Below, one piece after another: positions 41,391-50,972 of a stretch of 64,000 bases of DNA. The stretch comes from Methanofollis tationis. Lineage in GTDB: Archaea > Halobacteriota > Methanomicrobia > Methanomicrobiales > Methanofollaceae. The translations under genes and the position numbers were made by a program. The stretch's first letter is position 1, and each line of letters begins with the position of its first letter. The notes under the pieces are model-generated. The model saw only the letters and a program-made list of their open reading frames with translations, searched no databases and was not told the DNA's origin. The stretch is taken from the NCBI RefSeq assembly GCF_013377755.1, contig NZ_JABXWR010000001.1, positions 1,623,104 to 1,687,103 of the forward strand, given 5' to 3'.

Positions 41391-43037
41391 TTAAAAAGCG
41401 AACTGGTCGTCCAGCGGCGTCTCCCCGGCCACCCGCCTGAAGGCGGCGAGGTCGGCGAAGGGGCGCTTCGCGAGCACCTTCGGCAGGATCTTCTTTCCGA
41501 TGCCGGGGATGTGGCCGATCGCCGTGTGCGGCAGCGTGTTGATCTCGATCGGTTTCGGCAGGGCGGTGATAGAGCGCATCCCCCACCCGACGACGACGGC
41601 GTCGGTGACGGCACCCGCGGGAAGAGCGAGGGGGAAGCCGACCAGGATGGGGTAAGACCCCATCTGCCGCCCAAAACTCGTCCTGCCGCTCACTTCGATC
41701 CCGACATCGCGCAGCACGGTGCCCGCGGGAAAGACGCGGCCGAGCATCGGGAGGTCGAACTTCGTCCTCGTCCACTCTTTAAAGGCCCTGAAGGCGGCGT
41801 CCTGTTGCCCGAGGGTGTTCTCGTCGTAGGCGCGTGTGCCGGCGAAGGGCATCAGCTGCCTGATGTTCACCCGCCGCACCATCAGGCCGGAGGCGAGCAC
41901 CTGCTCCAGAAAGGTCCGGTTTTTGTCGTAGGTCAGGGCGGTCTCCCCGGCGAGGCCGCAGACGAAGTTCAGGCCGGGCAGGAGGTCGGGGACGCCGTCC
42001 CGGCGGCCGCCGCCGATCTCGTTGACGATCTCGATCGCCCTGAATACATCGTCCGGGAGTGCTTTGAGGTTGTTCGCCCGGATCACCGCAGGGTCGGCGG
42101 TCTCCATCCCGAAAGCGGCGACGTCGCCCGGGGTGTGCCCGGCGACGATCGCTGCAAGGGCGGCGCGGCTCTCCTCCTCATAATGGACGATGGTGCCGGG
42201 GTTCACGTTGTCGATGTGGAGGGTCAGCAGGTCTGGTGCCGCCGCACGGATCCCTGAGAAGAGGGCCTCGATGAGTTCGGGCCGTGGCCGGGCAAACTCG
42301 GCGCCGCCCGCGCTGCCGTAGGCGAGGAGGTCGGGCTGGCGGCCGAGACGGAAGTGGCGGGCCCCTGCGGCGTGGAGCGCCCCGACCTCGGCACTGACCC
42401 CGGCCGCAGCGCGGTAGTGGGGCGGGCCGTAGAAGGGTTCGGTACAGAACGAGCAGCCGCCGGTGACCGAGCGGGAGCAGCCCTGCGCTGTCTCCAGCTC
42501 GATCATGACGCGAGGGAAGAGCGGGTGCTGTCGCACGACCGGGGCGCCCAGCACGCTCCAGCGGTCGATAGCCGTGTAGTCGGCCTGTCCCGTGGGCTCG
42601 CCACCTCCCAGGAGGGAGTCGAGCGCCGCGGAGGGTGAGCCCTGGAGGAGGTGATCGAACCCTGCCGCCGCCGCCCGCACCGCTTTCCTCCCGCCTTCGG
42701 CAGCGTAGCCGAAGCCGATCGGCCCGCCCAGCACCTTTTTGGGGCCGCGGATCTGCACCCCGATCTGCGAGAGTTCGGTGAGCGTCGCCGGGGTGCCGGC
42801 AAGATACTTCCCCGGCACGGTGACACCGGCGATGACGAGCAGGAGGGCGGCGTCGGAGAACGTCCGCAGGGCCAGGGGGTCTTTGCGCACGGCGTCGATG
42901 GTGGTGTACCTGACGGTATAACCGCGCTCGGCGAGCACGCCGGCGCAGTACCTGATGTAGGGCGAGATATAGGGCGGGACGCCGAGGCACGCCGGTTCGT
43001 CGACGTAGCCGTCGAGGATGACTGCGTCAGAGGTCAT
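41391..43037 (-). CDS. Radical SAM protein with C-terminal helix-hairpin-helix (COG1031 type)
   Basis: This 548-residue protein has an N-terminal B12-binding-like Rossmann domain (CAGVLAERGYTVRYTTID), then a radical SAM core. The cluster cysteines are spaced CX7CX2C (CSRSVTGGCSFC) instead of the common CX3CX2C, a known feature of this archaeal family. The C-terminus has a helix-hairpin-helix DNA-binding motif (AIGHIPGIGKKILPKVLAKRPF). The combination of radical chemistry and a nucleic-acid-binding tail suggests a DNA or RNA substrate, which has not been established. It overlaps mptE by 11 bp. Confidence 0.9.
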   Translation of the reverse strand: MTSDAVILDGYVDEPACLGVPPYISPYIRYCAGVLAERGYTVRYTTIDAVRKDPLALRTFSDAALLLVIAGVTVPGKYLAGTPATLTELSQIGVQIRGPKKVLGGPIGFGYAAEGGRKAVRAAAAGFDHLLQGSPSAALDSLLGGGEPTGQADYTAIDRWSVLGAPVVRQHPLFPRVMIELETAQGCSRSVTGGCSFCTEPFYGPPHYRAAAGVSAEVGALHAAGARHFRLGRQPDLLAYGSAGGAEFARPRPELIEALFSGIRAAAPDLLTLHIDNVNPGTIVHYEEESRAALAAIVAGHTPGDVAAFGMETADPAVIRANNLKALPDDVFRAIEIVNEIGGGRRDGVPDLLPGLNFVCGLAGETALTYDKNRTFLEQVLASGLMVRRVNIRQLMPFAGTRAYDENTLGQQDAAFRAFKEWTRTKFDLPMLGRVFPAGTVLRDVGIEVSGRTSFGRQMGSYPILVGFPLALPAGAVTDAVVVGWGMRSITALPKPIEINTLPHTAIGHIPGIGKKILPKVLAKRPFADLAAFRRVAGETPLDDQFAF

Positions 43038-43647
43038 GGCCGAGGAGGGCGAGGAGGCGGCGGGCCCAGATAAGTTTGCCCCGCTTCACCGGGTCGACCG
43101 AGGGGTCGTCGAGGTCGAATCCGACAAGACGAACGTCCGCCGCCCCGAGGGCATGGGCGGCGAAGACGGCGCGGTCGCCATCGGAAAACCCACCGAAGTT
43201 GTGGATACGCCCGAAGGGTTCGGCCTGTGTCGTCCCGACGATGGGGCCGGAGAACCTGGGCACCCAGGCGCGCAGGAGCGCGATGTTGTCCCCGTGCGCA
43301 TGAGCGACGACAACTGTTCCCTGCCGGTTCATCTCCGCCAGTGCGTCGGTCGCCCCGTCAAGATCGGTGAAGACGGCGTCCGGGCGGATGCCGCGGGTGT
43401 ACAGCACCTCGGCGGCGGCGTCCGCTGCGATGACCGCCCCTTTGATCCGGTCGACCTGGCGCGGCAGGCATGGGGCGTTGCCGCAGACCGTGACCGTGCG
43501 GCCGCGGCAGAGGGCGTCGAGGGCAGGGAGATCGTCGCGGTCGAGGAGGTCGGCAAGAATGCGGGCGGCCTCCTCGTCGCCGGTCCGGTCAAAGGAGAAG
43601 TAGTCCAGGATCTCTTCGTACAGCGGTTCCCAGTCCTCAAACCTCAT
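43027..43647 (-). CDS. mptE: 6-Hydroxymethylpterin diphosphokinase, archaeal MptE
   Basis: This 206-residue DUF115-type enzyme phosphorylates 6-hydroxymethyl-7,8-dihydropterin in the route to tetrahydromethanopterin. Family sequence is seen in GRTVTVCGNAPCLPRQVDRI, IAADAAAEVLYTRGIRPDAV and FTDLDGATDALAEM. It supports a methanogenic host. It overlaps the DHH gene upstream by 11 bp and the radical SAM gene downstream by 11 bp, so the three form one operon. Confidence 0.9.
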   Translation of the reverse strand: MRFEDWEPLYEEILDYFSFDRTGDEEAARILADLLDRDDLPALDALCRGRTVTVCGNAPCLPRQVDRIKGAVIAADAAAEVLYTRGIRPDAVFTDLDGATDALAEMNRQGTVVVAHAHGDNIALLRAWVPRFSGPIVGTTQAEPFGRIHNFGGFSDGDRAVFAAHALGAADVRLVGFDLDDPSVDPVKRGKLIWARRLLALLGHDL

Positions 43648-45139
43648 GTTTCGCCTCGTCCTCCAGCCCGACGATCCTGCGGATCCGCTTCAGGATGGGC
43701 TCGATGATCAGGCCGAGGAGTTCCTCCTTGTCCTTGACCATCGAGAAATAGGTGAGCGGGATCACGGCCGCGGCCATGGTCGCATGCCCTCCTGCCTCGC
43801 CTATGCCCTTGAACGCCTCTTCGAGCACCTTGCCGATGTGAATCCTGATGTCCCGGTTCCGCGCTGAGAAGATGATGCTGGTGTCGGTGATCCCGTAGAT
43901 GATGGCGGTGTTCACGCCCTCAAGATTGATGAGGAGATCGGCGGCCTGAGGGATGGCGTCCCGGTTGCGCAGGTAGCCTACGTTGGCGAAGAGATAACCC
44001 GAAACGACCTCGCGGTCCTGGATGGCACTGCCAATTACCTCGAGGGTCTCCTGCGATACGGCCGGGGACATGATCTTGTCGAGGATGTCGCGGTCGGTGA
44101 GCGGGAGAAGGAATGCGGCATAATTGAAGTCCTGAGGCGTGATGTTACGCCGGAAGTCCCGTGTGTCCGCCCTGATGCCGTACAGGAGGGCGGTCGCCAC
44201 CTTCGTATCGACCGGGATGTCGAGTTCCTGAAGATACTGTGTCATCACCGAGGCGGTCGCCCCCATGCCCGGCCTGATATCGACGAAATCGACCTTGGAG
44301 GTGTCGTGGGTGCCGTTTTTATGGTGGTCGATGATGATGTTCACGCGGGCGTCCTTACCGAGGGCGTTGTTCACGCCTGGCCCCGAGGAGTCTACAAGGG
44401 CAAGGTGGTCGCAGGCCGAAAGGAGTTCCGGCGTGATCTGCTCCATCTTGATGTCGAGGAGGTTGACAAAGGCGCGGTTCTCCTGGTGGCCGATGGTGCC
44501 GTCGTACAGGATACGCGAGACGAGTTTGCCGCCGCTGGCGTCGTGCGCGATCACCGCCAGCGCCATGGCGCTTGATACTGAATCGGGATCAGGGTTGGTA
44601 TGAGCGATGATCCCAAGGGTCCCCTCCCAGGATCCGAGCAGAGTATAGAGGCGCCGTGCGATGCGCGACGATGATAGCCTCCTGATCCGCAGCACGGCGG
44701 TCTTGGCGATCACCTCCTGCGGGTATAACACCACATCGGCGCCGGCGGCCTCGAGCTGGTTCTTGCTCACCGGATCGGTTGCGCGTGCGATCAGGTGGGC
44801 GGATGGATATTTCGCCTTGGCGGTCCTGACGACGGCGAGGTTTGCGTCCTTGTCGTTTGAAAGAACGAAAATGACTTCGGGCACAGGCAATTCGTCAAGC
44901 GCTGCCGGATCCTTGAGTTCCCGGACGATCGCCTGATATTTCTGATCGAGCAGATCCTGCACTCTTTTCTCATCTTTATCAAGAATGAGGATTGAATCGG
45001 TCTCTTTGAGGAGTTCCTCAACGACGTTGTATCCTGTGCTCCCGCAGCCGCATATGAGGTATTTGATCTTCCCGGACGACCCGGTCTGAGCTGCATCGGC
45101 CATCGCAGTCTTGTGTGATCTTTCGGGATAATTAACCAT
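43637..45139 (-). CDS. RCK (TrkA-N) and DHH/DHHA1 phosphoesterase fusion
   Basis: This 500-residue protein joins an N-terminal RCK nucleotide-binding domain (KYLICGCGSTGYNVVEELL) to a DHH phosphoesterase. DHH motifs are HTNPDPDSVSSAMAL, LALVDSSGPG and INIIIDHHKNG-like sequence (here NIIIDHHKNG). DHHA1 ends in EAGGHATMAAAV. The architecture fits enzymes that hydrolyse linear or cyclic dinucleotides such as c-di-AMP. ATG 45103 is an alternative start to 45139. A TATA-like ATATCGAAATTA region lies just upstream, next to the divergent tRNA gene. Confidence 0.9.
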   Translation of the reverse strand: MVNYPERSHKTAMADAAQTGSSGKIKYLICGCGSTGYNVVEELLKETDSILILDKDEKRVQDLLDQKYQAIVRELKDPAALDELPVPEVIFVLSNDKDANLAVVRTAKAKYPSAHLIARATDPVSKNQLEAAGADVVLYPQEVIAKTAVLRIRRLSSSRIARRLYTLLGSWEGTLGIIAHTNPDPDSVSSAMALAVIAHDASGGKLVSRILYDGTIGHQENRAFVNLLDIKMEQITPELLSACDHLALVDSSGPGVNNALGKDARVNIIIDHHKNGTHDTSKVDFVDIRPGMGATASVMTQYLQELDIPVDTKVATALLYGIRADTRDFRRNITPQDFNYAAFLLPLTDRDILDKIMSPAVSQETLEVIGSAIQDREVVSGYLFANVGYLRNRDAIPQAADLLINLEGVNTAIIYGITDTSIIFSARNRDIRIHIGKVLEEAFKGIGEAGGHATMAAAVIPLTYFSMVKDKEELLGLIIEPILKRIRRIVGLEDEAKHEV

Positions 45140-45191
45140 CGCCGCAACCTTTATATCGAAATTAGGCTAACATAGTATGGTCAAAGCACAG

Positions 45192-45264
45192 GGGCCTGTA
45201 GCTTAGTTTGGCATAGCGGCGGACTCTTAATCCGCAGGCCAGGGGTTCAAATCCCTTCAGGCCC
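45192..45264 (+). tRNA. tRNA-Lys (anticodon CTT)
   Basis: The acceptor stem GGGCCTG pairs with CAGGCCC. The anticodon stem GCGGA / TCCGC encloses the loop CTCTTAA with anticodon CTT. The T-arm is AGGGG-TTCAAAT-CCCTT. No intron is present. The discriminator base is G, and CCA is not encoded. Confidence 0.97.
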
Positions 45265-45265
45265 G

Positions 45266-45683
45266 TTCTTTCTGTTCTGAAAAATTCTTTGTGCCTGAGT
45301 TCGATCTGATCGCATTTCTGTCCGCTCTTTTGCCTGCATCTCTGATCCGTTCGTGTATTTTTCAAGACCGACTGCGGTGCGGCATACACCGCCGGGCAGC
45401 GTTGGGCCTCGCTGGAGAAGGTGGTTCGGGGAAGACGGGTGGTTCTGAAAAATATGCTGTCCACTCACGCGAGAGGCCGCGATGAAACCGGGCCCTGTTC
45501 TAATCCCTGAGATCTTCGCGGAAATATGCGTCTTTTCGCGCCTAATCGCGTGAACCTTTCCCGGAAAATCATGTGACTGTCCTGAAACGCTTCTCGTCCC
45601 TTCTCTCATGTACTCCATCCCGGGTCGCCTGAGCAGGGTCGGGTGAAGGTGTCCTGACCTCCCACACAAGGGAGCGAAGAGCA
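45266..45683. other. Intergenic stretch without a credible gene
   Basis: The 418 bp after tRNA-Lys contain overlapping short frames on both strands, none with a ribosome-binding site or protein-like composition. I see no RNA gene or repeat here. Confidence 0.5.
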
Positions 45684-46574
45684 TTATTTCCCGACCGCCA
45701 CCAGCATCTCCTCAAGGCTCGGGTAGCGCGACTCGATCCGCTCCACCGTCCCACCGGCCGCCGCCACGGCCGCGGATACCCGGTTCATTCCGGCGACATC
45801 GCCGGCTGCAGCCATGTAGATGCCGTCGGATCGTGTATAGGCCAGGGAGGGTTCAAGGGCGCTCGCGTTTGGGATGGTGAAATAGACCTCGTAGGTGAGG
45901 GAGCCGAACCGCTCCCTCAGGTCCCGCATCGTGCCGAAGGCCTCGATCCGGCCCCGCCTCAGGATCATCACCCGGTCGCAGATCTCCTCGATCTGGTAGA
46001 GGTTGTGCGCCGAGAGCACGATCGTCCTCCCTTCGGCGCGCAGCTCCCTGAGATACTCTCCGATAAACCGCCCGGTCATCGGGTCGAGCCCGGACGAAGG
46101 CTCGTCATAGACGAGGAACCGGGGATCGTGTAGCAGGGAGCGTGCGATCGCCACCTTGCGCCGCATTCCTTTCGAGAGCTCGCCGATCTTCTTCTCGCCG
46201 GCGTCGAGAGAGAGGGAGGAGAGGAGGCGCCCGCTGCGTTCACGGATCTCCCCGCCTGAAAGCCCATAGATCTCGCCGAAGAAGGCGAGGTAGTCGGCGA
46301 CCCTCATTGTCTCGTACAGGCGCGACTCCTCAGGGAGGTAGCCGAGGGTCTGCTTCAGGGCGTGCGGGTTTCTGACCACATCGACGCCGGCGATCGCAAG
46401 GCTTCCCGTGGTCGGGGACGAGAGCCCGGAGAGGATTTTCAGGAGCGTCGTCTTCCCGGCCCCGTTGTGCCCCACAACCCCGAGGATCTCTCCTTCTCCG
46501 AGATCAAAACTCACGCCGTCGAGGGCCCTGAACGCCCCGTAGTCCTTCACCAAGTTGCGTGCCGCGATCATCAT
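45684..46574 (-). CDS. ABC transporter ATP-binding protein
   Basis: This 296-residue ATPase has Walker A GHNGAGKTT, signature ELSKGMRRKVAI, Walker B FLVYDEPSSGLDP and H-loop VLSAHNLYQIEEI. It is of the DrrA/NatA type with a C-terminal accessory domain. The start at 46574 (MMIAARNLVKDYG) was chosen because the protein family begins there. An ATG at 46604 would add ten residues. It is divergent from the two permease genes that should complete the exporter. Confidence 0.92.
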   Translation of the reverse strand: MMIAARNLVKDYGAFRALDGVSFDLGEGEILGVVGHNGAGKTTLLKILSGLSSPTTGSLAIAGVDVVRNPHALKQTLGYLPEESRLYETMRVADYLAFFGEIYGLSGGEIRERSGRLLSSLSLDAGEKKIGELSKGMRRKVAIARSLLHDPRFLVYDEPSSGLDPMTGRFIGEYLRELRAEGRTIVLSAHNLYQIEEICDRVMILRRGRIEAFGTMRDLRERFGSLTYEVYFTIPNASALEPSLAYTRSDGIYMAAAGDVAGMNRVSAAVAAAGGTVERIESRYPSLEEMLVAVGK

Positions 46575-48448
46575 ATCGGAGTCGTACGCCACCGGATATA
46601 TCATATCGCATACTGCCCAACCGTTCCTGCAAGGAGTCGATCCCGATCAGCCTGCGAACCGCCCTGACCATTGCGCGCTGGGAGACGAAACGTTCCCTCA
46701 CCACGATGAGCAGAGACGTCCTCCCCATGACTGCCGTCCTTCTCGTCGCTCTCCTCCTCGCCTCGGGTATCACCGCAGAGAGCGGCATCCGTCTCCAGGA
46801 CGGTATCTACACGGTGGGGATCGACGATCCCGCCGTAGCGGCGATCCTCTCAGGCGACCCGGCATTCTCGGTGAGTCTCACAGACGGCGCCACGCTCGCC
46901 CAGAGACCGGGCGCATACGACCTCGTCATCTCGGGTGGCAGGGCCAGGGCGGCCCGGACCGAGAAGGGTGCGGCGGCGCTCTCTGCATTCTCCATCGCAT
47001 ACCGGAACTACCGTACCGGTATCTACACAGGCGAAGAGGACCTCTTTGCCGCATACCCCCTCTGGATCGAGACGGTAGAGGTGACGAGCAGCCTCGACTT
47101 CACCGCCACCGAAAGCGGACAGATCATCGCCCCAAAACCGCAGGAAGGGAGCGACGTTCGGCCCTCAGGCCAGGTCGAAGAGGTGCCGACACCTTCGTCC
47201 ACCCTCGCCGTCTCCGCGGAAGAACTCCGCCAGGACCTCGCCGCCGCCCCGGCAGGGAACGAGGGGATCGCGCGCTACCTTGGCATGTTCTCAGGCGGCC
47301 CTGACCTCGGGGAGTTCAAGACCCCCTCGCAGCTCTCCCCGCCCCTCCCCTTCGACTCGCTCATTTACATCTTCGTCTTCATCTTTCCGCTCTACTTCAC
47401 CTCCCAGTTCGCGATGATGTCGATTGCAAACGAGCGGATCGAGCGGCGGGGCGAGATCCTTCTTTCCACCCCGGCCGGACCGCTCACCATCATCGCCGGC
47501 AAGATGCTCCCCTACTTCCTCCTGATGATCGCCGTCTGCTCGGCGATTGTCCTCATCACCGGCGGATCGTTCGTTGTCATCTTCCCCCTCATCCCGGTGA
47601 TCCTCTTCTTCCTTGCGGCGGCACTGCTCATCGGCATGACGGCGCGGAGCTTTCGAGAACTCTCCTTCCTCTCCATCTTCTTCTCGACGGTGATGACCTC
47701 GTACCTCTTCTTCCCCTCGATCTTCGCAAATGTCCACGTGATCAGCCTGATCTCGCCCCTGACCCTGGTGGTCCTCAACTTCCAGGGCACGGGCTTTTCT
47801 GCGGCCGACTACCTCTATGCGACCGCCCTCTTCTGGCTCTCAACCGCCGTCGTCCTCTGGCTCTGCGCCCGCAACTTCACCGAGGAGCAGCTCTTCTCGC
47901 AGGAACGCCTCACCTCCCGCCTCCGCTCCTTTATCTTTGCGGCGATGGCCCGGGACCACCCCTTCGCCTCCCTCGTCGCCGTAAACCTCCTCGCCATCCC
48001 GCTCATCTTCATGGTGCAACTGATGTACCTGGTGCTCCTCTTCAACCTCCCGCTGCCGTGGTCGCTCATCGCCCTGATCCTCCTCGCCGCCTTCACCGAG
48101 GAGGTCGCCAAGTCGATCGGGATCGTCGCCCTCTTCCGCGGGATCCCGGGCTTTTTCACCTGGCGAAACGTGCTCCTCGCCGCCGTGGCGACCGGGTTCG
48201 GTTTCCTCCTCGGTGAGAAACTTCTCCTCTTCGTGATGATGGCGCAGGTCACCGGGTCGCTCTTCGGCTCTGTCCTCTTCTCGGGTTTCGGCCTCCTCTG
48301 GATGCCCTTCCTTCTCCATACGGCAGGCGCCCTGATCGTGGGGGCGGTGCTGAAGGTCGGCGGGCGTCGGGCCTATCTCCCGGGCCTCCTCCTCGCGACG
48401 GCGGTCCATGCCTCGTATAACCTCATCCTGATCGGGGGTGCACTGTGA
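46559..48448 (+). CDS. ABC-2 permease fused to a PrsW-like intramembrane protease domain
   Basis: The first 440 or so residues are an ABC-2 type permease: TALTIARWETKRSLT, a first helix, a large extracytoplasmic domain, then five or more helices (YIFVFIFPLYFTSQFAMMS onward). The remaining 190 residues carry the PrsW protease motifs: FTEEVAKSIG (EExxK), TGFGFLLGEKLL, LLHTAGALIVG and AVHASYNLIL. The start is uncertain. ATG 46559 overlaps the divergent ATPase gene. Homology begins near 46650, where AAGGAG precedes an in-frame ATC but no standard start codon. It overlaps the second permease gene by 4 bp. Confidence 0.82.
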   Translation: MPRSSYRSRTPPDISYRILPNRSCKESIPISLRTALTIARWETKRSLTTMSRDVLPMTAVLLVALLLASGITAESGIRLQDGIYTVGIDDPAVAAILSGDPAFSVSLTDGATLAQRPGAYDLVISGGRARAARTEKGAAALSAFSIAYRNYRTGIYTGEEDLFAAYPLWIETVEVTSSLDFTATESGQIIAPKPQEGSDVRPSGQVEEVPTPSSTLAVSAEELRQDLAAAPAGNEGIARYLGMFSGGPDLGEFKTPSQLSPPLPFDSLIYIFVFIFPLYFTSQFAMMSIANERIERRGEILLSTPAGPLTIIAGKMLPYFLLMIAVCSAIVLITGGSFVVIFPLIPVILFFLAAALLIGMTARSFRELSFLSIFFSTVMTSYLFFPSIFANVHVISLISPLTLVVLNFQGTGFSAADYLYATALFWLSTAVVLWLCARNFTEEQLFSQERLTSRLRSFIFAAMARDHPFASLVAVNLLAIPLIFMVQLMYLVLLFNLPLPWSLIALILLAAFTEEVAKSIGIVALFRGIPGFFTWRNVLLAAVATGFGFLLGEKLLLFVMMAQVTGSLFGSVLFSGFGLLWMPFLLHTAGALIVGAVLKVGGRRAYLPGLLLATAVHASYNLILIGGAL

Positions 48449-49518
48449 AGCCGCGTCATGTCTGGACCATCGCAAAAAAAGAACTCCGGGGGATCGGAAA
48501 CGAGCGGACGATCGTGCTTGCGATCCTGCTGCAGGTATTCATCGCCATGTTCTCCTCGTTCCTGGTCGTCGGCCTCACCTCGCTCTACGACCCCTCGTCC
48601 CTCGGCGGGATGTCGGGGGGGTATGCGGTCGGGTATGCCGGCACCGATTCGCCGCTTGCAGACCTGCTCGAAGAGAAAGGCGACTTCGAGGTCTACCGGA
48701 TGGACCTCTCCGAAGCGGTCGCCGCCCTGCAGGAGCGGAGGCTTGCGGCAGTGGTCTATGTCCCTGATACCCCTCCGGACGGTACCGACCCGGTGAAGAT
48801 CACGCTCTACACCCTGAAAAACGACATCTCCGCCTCGGTGACCGGCGTGAAGATCAGGGAGGCGATGGAGGCCTATGAGGTGATGCTCAGGGAGGCGAGA
48901 GACGACCGCCTCACTGCAGAGCCCGTCGAGATCGCCGTTCCTGCAGATGTACGCGGCCAGAGTTTCTTCATCTTCGTTTACGGCCTCCTCGTGCCCCTCC
49001 TCCTCTTCATGCCGGCGATCATCTCGGCGAGCCTGATCATCGACTTCATCACCGAGGAGTACAGCACAAAAACCCTCGACACGCTCCTCTCGACGCCCCT
49101 CACCTTCACCGAGATCCTCTGGGGAAAAGTGCTCGCTGCATGGGTGCTCGTCCCGCTCCAGGCCGGGGCGTGGATCGTCCTCCTGGCAGCGAACGGGATC
49201 GCGATCCGCAGCACCCTTGCGATCCTCCTCCACGTATCGGCGGCGTCCCTGGTGCTGATCCTCATCGGGGCGATCGCCGCCCTTCACTATCGTGAGCGGA
49301 CGAGTGCCCAGTTCGTCTACTCGACCGCTCTCGTCGCCGTCCTCCTCGCCGTCCTCGCCATCCCCGGCAACCCGGCGAACCTGATCGTCCTGCTCGCAGC
49401 CGGTTCGCCAGCGCCCCTGCATGGGGCGGCGCTCGTCGGTGTCCTTACCGGGACGGCCTTCCTTGCGATCATCACCGATCGCTATGCGCGGCGGCTGGCG
49501 GCACGGGCGGCGCAATAG
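48445..49518 (+). CDS. ABC-2 type permease
   Basis: This 357-residue permease begins at a GTG overlapping the previous stop. It has an N-terminal cytoplasmic start (HVWTIAKKELRGIGNERTIV), one helix, a 110-residue external domain and then about five helices (FFIFVYGLLVPLLLFMPAII onward). ITEEYSTKTLDTLLSTPLT is the usual coupling segment of NatB-like permeases. With the PrsW-fused permease and the divergent ATPase it would form one export complex; the cargo is unknown. Confidence 0.9.
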   Translation: MKPRHVWTIAKKELRGIGNERTIVLAILLQVFIAMFSSFLVVGLTSLYDPSSLGGMSGGYAVGYAGTDSPLADLLEEKGDFEVYRMDLSEAVAALQERRLAAVVYVPDTPPDGTDPVKITLYTLKNDISASVTGVKIREAMEAYEVMLREARDDRLTAEPVEIAVPADVRGQSFFIFVYGLLVPLLLFMPAIISASLIIDFITEEYSTKTLDTLLSTPLTFTEILWGKVLAAWVLVPLQAGAWIVLLAANGIAIRSTLAILLHVSAASLVLILIGAIAALHYRERTSAQFVYSTALVAVLLAVLAIPGNPANLIVLLAAGSPAPLHGAALVGVLTGTAFLAIITDRYARRLAARAAQ

Positions 49519-49667
49519 GATTGTCAGGAAGGGTAAAAGGTCCGATGGCTGCTTATTTTTCCGTATGGGCCGAAAATAACTGTAGATATCACCACATTTC
49601 TGCTAATCGGGCGGAGAAAATCAGAAAAAATATACAATAGCCCTCCGCACATGTAGCGTGATCCATC

Positions 49668-50972
49668 ATGATCCGAACAGTATCCTTCATGGCAGGAGCG
49701 GTTCTCGCTCTTTTCCTTCTCGTGGCCCCGGCCGCCGCCCTCGGCGGCGACGAGGCCTGGATAGAGGTCAGGTGCAATGTGAACGGTGCATCGATCTACT
49801 TCGACAACGACTACAAAGGCCAGATCACAAGCGGCGTGCTGAGCGTGCCTGTCTATACGACCGGTGCGCCGTATTACACGGCAAAGGCGACGATGGACGG
49901 TTATTACACCGCATCGACCTCGATCGGCTCGTACCCCTCAATTGGAGAGTCTAAGACCATCTACATCACCTTAAACCCGGTTCCGACCCCGGTTCCCCCC
50001 TCCACTGGCTCCATCTCGGTGACCTCCAGCCCGAGCGGCGCAAAGACCTATCTGGACGGTTCCTACTATGGCAGGACGCCGCAGGTGATCAGCGGCCTCT
50101 CTGTGGGGTCGCACACGGTCAGGGTCGAGTACGACGGTTACCAGACCTGGACCCAGACCGCCGGCGTCAGTGCCGGTGGGGTCACGAGTGTCTATGCCAC
50201 CCTGGCGCATGAGCCGACCTACGGCTCGATCTACGTCTCTTCGAGCCCGTCGAACGCCAATGTCTATCTTGATGGCACGTATAAGGGCACGACCCCGATG
50301 ACCATCAGCGGCGTCTCGCAGGGGTCTCATTTCCTCGAGATCGAGAAGGCCGGGTACCATGAATGGAGCAGCTCGGTAAAGGTCGTCTCAGGCCAGCAGT
50401 CCTACATCTCGGCCACCCTTGACCCCAACTCACAGCCGACCTCAGGGACGATCGTCGTCTCCTCCACCCCGGTCGGTGCCTACATCTATCTGGACGGGAG
50501 TTACCAGGGCAGAACAACTGCGCAGGGCTTTGTGATCATCGGCGTCTCGCCGGGCACCCGCACCGTGACCCTGAAACTCGACGGCTACCAGGACGCCGCC
50601 ACCTCGGTTAACGTGAACGCAGGGCAGCAGTCTTCGGTCTCCCTCACCCTGCAGACCCCCGGTGCAAACACCGGTTCGATGACGATCACCTCCACCCCCG
50701 CAGGTGCCGAGGTCTACCTGAACAACGCGTATAAGGGTATCACACCCCTCACCCTCAGCGATCTCGCCGTGGGCTCATACACCGTCTCGGTCCAGCTCCA
50801 GGGCTATACCGAGTGGACCACCACCGCCACCGTGAACGCTGGCGCCACGACCCCGGTTTCGGCGCAGCTCGTGCCGGCAACGACGCCGACCCCTGAGGCA
50901 GCGGCGATGCCGCTGACGGTGTTCGGCGCCATCGCCCTGCTCGGTGCGGTGCTCGTCCTGCGCAGGCGCTGA
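49668..50972 (+). CDS. Surface protein with five PEGA repeats
   Basis: This 434-residue secreted protein begins with a signal peptide (SFMAGAVLALFLLVAPAAAL). Five beta-rich PEGA-type repeats follow, the last four very regular: each starts S-S-P/T-x-G-A-x-x-YLDG and includes G-x-x-x-V-x-x-x-GY. The C-terminus is a helix followed by arginines (AIALLGAVLVLRRR), which anchors the protein in the membrane. PEGA domains are common in cell-surface proteins. A ligand cannot be inferred. Repeats begin at about residues 26, 105, 176, 246 and 317. Confidence 0.9.
   Translation: MIRTVSFMAGAVLALFLLVAPAAALGGDEAWIEVRCNVNGASIYFDNDYKGQITSGVLSVPVYTTGAPYYTAKATMDGYYTASTSIGSYPSIGESKTIYITLNPVPTPVPPSTGSISVTSSPSGAKTYLDGSYYGRTPQVISGLSVGSHTVRVEYDGYQTWTQTAGVSAGGVTSVYATLAHEPTYGSIYVSSSPSNANVYLDGTYKGTTPMTISGVSQGSHFLEIEKAGYHEWSSSVKVVSGQQSYISATLDPNSQPTSGTIVVSSTPVGAYIYLDGSYQGRTTAQGFVIIGVSPGTRTVTLKLDGYQDAATSVNVNAGQQSSVSLTLQTPGANTGSMTITSTPAGAEVYLNNAYKGITPLTLSDLAVGSYTVSVQLQGYTEWTTTATVNAGATTPVSAQLVPATTPTPEAAAMPLTVFGAIALLGAVLVLRRR

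Follow-up and report, generated by a model that had tools for sequence, protein, structure and literature searches.

The 64,000-nucleotide stretch of the Methanofollis tationis genome analyzed here ("the window"; contig NZ_JABXWR010000001.1, positions 1,623,104 to 1,687,103, from a genome of 2.25 Mb in two contigs) carries at 45684-49518 the genes of an ATP-binding cassette (ABC) transporter: an ATPase on the minus strand and, divergent from it on the plus strand, two ABC-2 half-permeases, perm1 and perm2. perm1 ends in a domain related to the intramembrane protease PrsW. This fusion keeps an intact set of protease motifs across the phylum, and ATPase, perm1 and perm2 form a fixed trio that is inherited and lost as a unit. 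Judging from the sequences, we propose that the trio may be one ABC exporter with a built-in active PrsW-type protease that cuts and clears membrane peptides, a proposal that we regard as evenly balanced between right and wrong.

The PrsW-like domain of perm1

The sequence-only reading of this DNA had placed a PrsW-like domain at the end of an ABC-2 permease, and profile matches, alignments and fold comparison bear this out. In the isolated 149-residue domain, PF13367 (PrsW) was the sole Pfam match (E 4.8e-5), its 23.4 bits falling just short of the curated cut-off of 23.5; PF02517 (Rce1/CPBP) was not matched. A genome-wide search with PF13367 found one place only, perm1, at 21.9 bits, likewise under the cut-off. 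The same domain from two distant homologues scored 34.7 and 33.8 bits. When whole proteins were scanned, PrsW was matched in only 2 of 59 homologues at E 0.01. Twenty-five genomes were searched with PF13367, 18 of them having the fused protein; here 12 of the 18 lay above the cut-off, that of the window just below it, and five went undetected. Aligned with hhalign, 30 fused domains matched 16 stand-alone archaeal PrsW proteins at 94.3% in an alignment of 127 columns that keeps EExxK, FxxxE and HxxxN in register, compared to 5.5% for the fused domains against 12 Rce1/CPBP domains and 35.5% for stand-alone PrsW against CPBP. Membership in Rce1/CPBP was rejected on this low value and on the lack of EExxxR, in whose place EExxK stands in 59 of 59 aligned rows.

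The segments TEEVAKS, GFGFLLGE, LLHTAG and VHASYN, already picked out as PrsW motifs from the letters, were located as E485, E486 and K489, F520/E524, H558, and H588/N592, respectively (residues counted from position 46646). The numbers "motif 2" and "motif 3" used below are ones that we take to apply. The labels for EExxK and the histidine are those of published accounts of the family (PMC6588880, PMC4602095). EExxK, at residues 485-489, lies within a transmembrane (TM) helix of the model spanning residues 470-499, and FxxxE, His and HxxxN/D follow in later helices in the same order as in stand-alone PrsW. A four-motif pattern with loose spacings, which was composed after the motifs had been seen, matched one of the 296 stop-to-stop open reading frames (ORFs) of at least 100 amino acids (aa) in the window, compared to 0.029 matches per window for shuffled window ORFs; shuffling perm1 alone gave 2 matches in 200,000.

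The structure model of whole perm1 (predicted template modelling score, pTM, 0.78) displays six ABC-2 helices and, beyond a helix near the membrane surface at residues 422-433, roughly five further ones that make up the PrsW module. In this model E485/E486, K489, E524, K525, H558 and H588 sit mid-helix in membrane-length helices. For residues 1-424 the structural alignments point to type V transporters (ABCH-9C, Z 15.5; NosY, 15.1; ABCA1, 14.1), and loop residues 53-130 align with 2p0s (Z 6.3), which is a putative domain of an ABC transporter; beneath the type V rows, Foldseek returned mostly noise for the full model. As no PrsW-group chain was among the VIA-align rows listed for the full perm1 model, the domain was modelled separately. 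Folded alone (predicted local distance difference test, pLDDT, 88; pTM 0.81), it found APH-1 chains as the only VIA-align rows at Z of at least 8 (9.9, 9.8 and 9.1, over 142-145 of the 149 residues) and Rce1 (4cad) at Z 6.7, values to be taken with caution since Z below 13 between helical bundles may reflect a common arrangement. Its best matches thereby place the domain model in the PrsW/Rce1/APH-1 fold group, and two papers treat APH-1, Rce1 and PrsW as one homologous group (PMC6588880, PMC4602095). A Foldseek search with the isolated domain gave nothing significant (E 0.85), and a sequence search of the PDB gave no match for the domain profile, the full profile or perm2. The viral fold search in BFVD yielded nothing convincing, and PADLOC had no match for the permeases and only such matches for the ATPase as are expected of generic ATPase domains.

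Conservation and gene order of the cassette

The search for the same fusion elsewhere, suggested by the sequence-only reading, showed it to be widespread. Within the order, perm1 was matched in 174 of 232 genomes (116 of the 135 good ones), and a profile search found it in 198 of 392 genomes sampled over the phylum (188 of the 320 good ones); most genomes hold a single copy. In the order alignment, the residues E487, E488, E526, H560, H590 and N594 (numbering of that alignment) were kept in all 62 complete rows and K491 in 61, the 63rd row (L004) being a fragment. The phylum alignment comprises 59 rows, 29 near and 30 far, at 23-79% identity to the protein of the window; L121 and L127, of which one has a broken N-terminus and one is a near copy, were omitted from it and both show the motifs. 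Only 18 columns of the 600-residue perm1 are strictly invariant in this alignment, and eight of them fall in the last 149 residues: P554 and the seven columns E485, E486, K489, E524, K525, H558 and H588. Loss of EExxK or the histidines in homologues, which had been named as the sign of a non-catalytic membrane domain, was accordingly not seen, and this degree of constraint suggests that the PrsW domain is probably catalytically active.

When the 59 fused domains and 16 stand-alone ones were put in one tree, a single branch separated the two groups with a support of 100/99, although the program warns of long branches. Since this one branch splits fused from stand-alone domains, the tree would fit a single fusion event.

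In each of the 57 loci, perm2 comes directly after perm1 in the same orientation. The ATPase gene adjoins the permeases in 54 of them, either divergently (45) or as the upstream head of a same-strand operon (9). Three loci are without it: L066 is cut by the contig end, while in L105 and L107 no ATPase gene was found in the stretch. perm2 was found in none of 17 genomes without perm1 and in 6 of 6 controls. Leaving aside the reading frames of these genes, no family besides the ATPase and perm2 recurs in both near and far loci. As a separate observation, the whole cassette is missing from the listed genomes of genus g9 and from several g40 genomes, mostly of about 2 Mb or smaller; that genome reduction lies behind this loss is our guess.

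By its ABC2_membrane_3 domain (PF12698; E 5.7e-8 in perm1 and 6.7e-18 in perm2), its type V fold and its ATPase partner, perm1 is an ABC-2/type V permease. The ATPase shows a Walker A (GHNGAGKTT), a signature (LSKGM) and a Walker B (YDEP) sequence and matches TIGR01188 (drrA) at E 1.3e-67, yet under the cut-off of that model. The large loop between the first two helices of perm1 would presumably lie on the extracellular side. The closest named loci are from Methanofollis metagenome-assembled genomes. The same three genes form an operon on a Haladaptatus plasmid, where RefSeq lists an ATP-binding protein, an "ABC transporter permease subunit" and a permease, and leaves the protease unmentioned. 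At a Haladaptatus locus (L187; NZ_CP085330.1, 5147-10071), Pfam identifies a DUF4112 gene and a proteasome-like subunit gene after the operon. The features of the cassette are compiled in the following table.

Features of the cassette in the window
Feature	Position	Strand	Basis
ABC ATPase, DrrA-like; divergent from the permeases	45684..46604	-	PF00005, E 3.9e-30
AAGGAG, resembling a ribosome-binding site, then ATC as proposed start codon at 46646	46631..46648	+	genus-wide conserved context
perm1, ABC-2/type V half-permease with C-terminal PrsW-like domain, 600 aa	46646..48448	+	PF12698 and model
Large loop between TM helices 1 and 2 of perm1, about residues 47-234	46784..47347	+	helix boundaries of the model
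PrsW-like domain, 149 residues, about five TM helices	47999..48445	+	PF13367, hhalign, VIA-align
Motif 1, EExxK (E485, E486, K489)	48098..48112	+	invariant in 59/59 rows
Motif 2, FxxxE (F520, E524), with invariant K525 next	48203..48217	+	E524 and K525 in 59/59, F in 58/59
Motif 3, His (H558)	48317..48319	+	59/59 rows
Motif 4, HxxxN (H588, N592)	48407..48421	+	H in 59/59; N in 56/59, D in 3/59
perm2, second ABC-2 half-permease, 4-base overlap with perm1	48445..49518	+	PF12698

In this genus perm1 seems to start with AUC. All ten distinct contexts from the genus preserve AGGAGTCGATCNNGATCAG, and in the same ten no ATG, GTG or TTG occurs within 30 codons upstream of the conserved sequence TIARWE; seven of them have no such codon after the last in-frame stop. 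Outside the genus, ATG, GTG or TTG is present 5-11 codons upstream of TIARWE in 51 of 51 contexts.

What the trio may do

In the mechanism that we propose, the ATPase would drive two different ABC-2 (type V-like) half-permeases, and the PrsW domain of perm1 would cut a membrane-embedded peptide or the tail of a membrane protein, candidate substrates being spent signal or sorting peptides and damaged tails. The ATP-driven half of the same complex would then take the hydrophobic fragment out of the bilayer. Such a complex could be the archaeal counterpart, in one piece, of a pathway that Firmicutes run with two: there Eep/RasP, an intramembrane protease, makes the cut, and the ABC transporter EcsAB/PptAB exports or clears the peptide. 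Going further, and tentatively, since we place it somewhat short of an even chance, the fusion may be a hard-wired cut-and-extrude machine, ancestral to much of the phylum, that uses ATP hydrolysis to pull or expel the fragments made by its PrsW-type protease. The single-copy, gene-order-conserved and lineage-wide inheritance of the trio argues for a substrate of the housekeeping type rather than a dedicated secreted peptide.

Several points weigh against the cutting and clearing of membrane peptides by the trio. No perm1 match was obtained in 132 of the 320 good genomes of the phylum sample (more than 40%), whole genera included, so that the job of the trio would not be universally needed. 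The closest structural match of the domain is APH-1, a non-proteolytic scaffold. Neither perm1 nor perm2 has an EcsB family match in Pfam at E up to 1, which speaks against homology to EcsAB, and it is the fold of the model that suggests export as the direction of transport. Co-occurrence with archaeosortase A, as would befit a trio that clears the remnants of sorting signals, was tried as a lead and set aside: TIGR04125 is present in 320 of 320 good genomes and therefore says nothing either way. Finally, a conserved short peptide gene nearby, which the sequence-only reading had envisaged, did not materialize. Ten loci of congeners, five of which include wider flanks, served for comparison with the ORFs of at least 20 aa in the gaps on either side of the cassette (45140-45683 and 49519-49667), and no conserved peptide gene was found there. 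Most of these ORFs match only the 95%-identical locus L035; those with wider matches overlap or adjoin a tRNA-Lys gene, and a few further matches, to L002, L036 or L037, are weak fragments.

The missing peptide gene bears equally on a rival reading, according to which the trio is a dedicated maturation exporter: the protease would trim one specific target, be it a secreted peptide, a lipoprotein or a surface protein, whose gene lies elsewhere in the genome, and the transporter would export that product only. In other ABC classes, the fusion of a protease to a peptide exporter is a known design, and the variable large loop between the first two helices could recognise such a substrate. We nevertheless consider this reading unlikely, as the cassette has no conserved short gene next to it and as a phylum-wide, mostly single-copy trio is more in keeping with a general substrate than with a single peptide. 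The APH-1 match leads to another rival, in which the domain is a pseudo-protease serving structure or assembly, the role of APH-1 in gamma-secretase, and the transporter carries a lipid or drug. In favor of this are the three APH-1 chains at the top of the structural rows, together with several type V rows that are lipid or drug transporters by title (ABCH-9C with ceramide, ABCA1). On the other side, not one row across the whole identity range of the phylum alignment departs from EExxK, the motif-2 Glu or either His, and each of these would need a non-catalytic reason for its constancy; moreover, APH-1 is described as having QExxR where CPBP proteases have EExxxR (PMC6588880). We therefore hold a pseudo-protease to be quite improbable.

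The most improbable of the readings weighed here, in our judgement, is a sensor, in which the domain as a site-1 protease would cut a membrane-bound regulator when a membrane-active compound engages the transporter, thereby turning flux into a gene-expression signal. ABC-coupled sensing is known elsewhere. When B. subtilis responds to antimicrobial peptides, its PrsW is described as acting as a site-1 protease (PMC4602095). Across the loci, however, no regulator gene belongs to the cassette, where only the ATPase and perm2 recur both near and far.

Further genes were noted around the cassette. A search for tRNA genes in the window turned up a single one, tRNA-Lys (CTT) at 45192-45265 (+), and nearby apparent ORFs are partly antisense to it. 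In 27 of the 40 order loci, a gene for a TrkA-N/DHH/DHHA1 fusion protein (Pfam; 43637-45139 in the window) is found close to the cassette, usually accompanied by a 206-aa and a 548-aa gene; in the window the group spans 41391-45139 (-). On the other side, at 49668-50972 (+), lies the gene of a surface protein that has four PEGA domains and, at its C-terminus, a hydrophobic tail; it neighbours the cassette in this genus and also in some further genera.

Relation to known systems

Little is known about how archaea rid the bilayer of spent signal and TM peptides. If the trio acts as an exporter that cuts and clears, its conserved fusion would let one gene deletion probe both steps together, and point mutants (EE or H versus Walker residues) could separate cutting from clearance. 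For the fusion of an ABC permease with PrsW, searches of open-licence papers in PubMed Central (PMC) showed no description; a mention in Pei et al. 2011 (PMC3155266) is possible. The PrsW-type fusion branch, its spread and its constraint hence appear undescribed, and in at least one RefSeq record the name "ABC transporter permease subunit" conceals this divergent branch of PrsW. The idea of a permease-protease design is already known, because a CPBP-type counterpart is named in NCBIfam (NF041647, ABC transporter permease subunit/CPBP intramembrane protease).

By its name, NF041647 likewise joins an ABC-2 permease to a protease of the same superfamily, but the protease of perm1 is PrsW-like and not CPBP-like, as the hhalign values indicate. 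Membership was rejected, as perm1 has no NCBIfam match at all and perm2 matches the N-terminal part of NF041647 (E 1e-10) at 41.1 bits, far under the cut-off of 435. With the PrsW family (PF13367, MEROPS M82) the domain of perm1 shares EExxK, FxxxE, His and HxxxN/D in order and register, whereas it differs in being fused to a transporter and in forming its own tree branch. Stand-alone archaeal PrsW proteins have a DG pair before motif 2 in 16 of 16 cases, which the fused domain lacks, and the fused domain instead has the invariant Lys after the motif-2 Glu.

The best structural neighbours of the isolated domain are APH-1 of gamma-secretase and Rce1, the latter described as having EExxxR and cutting prenylated CAAX proteins (PMC6588880). 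The fold of perm1 residues 1-424 is that of NosDFY and other type V transporters, to which perm1 adds a large loop and the protease; no listed row covers residues 425-600 along with the permease. In Eep/RasP, an S2P-type protease family, and EcsAB/PptAB, protease and transporter are separate polypeptides, and the permeases of the trio bear no Pfam sign of EcsB. In S. aureus, Eep and EcsAB are described as both being required to process and export linear peptides from lipoprotein leaders (PMC7157817), and in B. subtilis Ecs is described as affecting RasP-mediated intramembrane proteolysis, with a proposed role in cleaning peptides from the membrane (PMC2996298). As an intramembrane protease working with an ABC transporter in peptide processing and export, this pathway would be the functional analogue of the trio.

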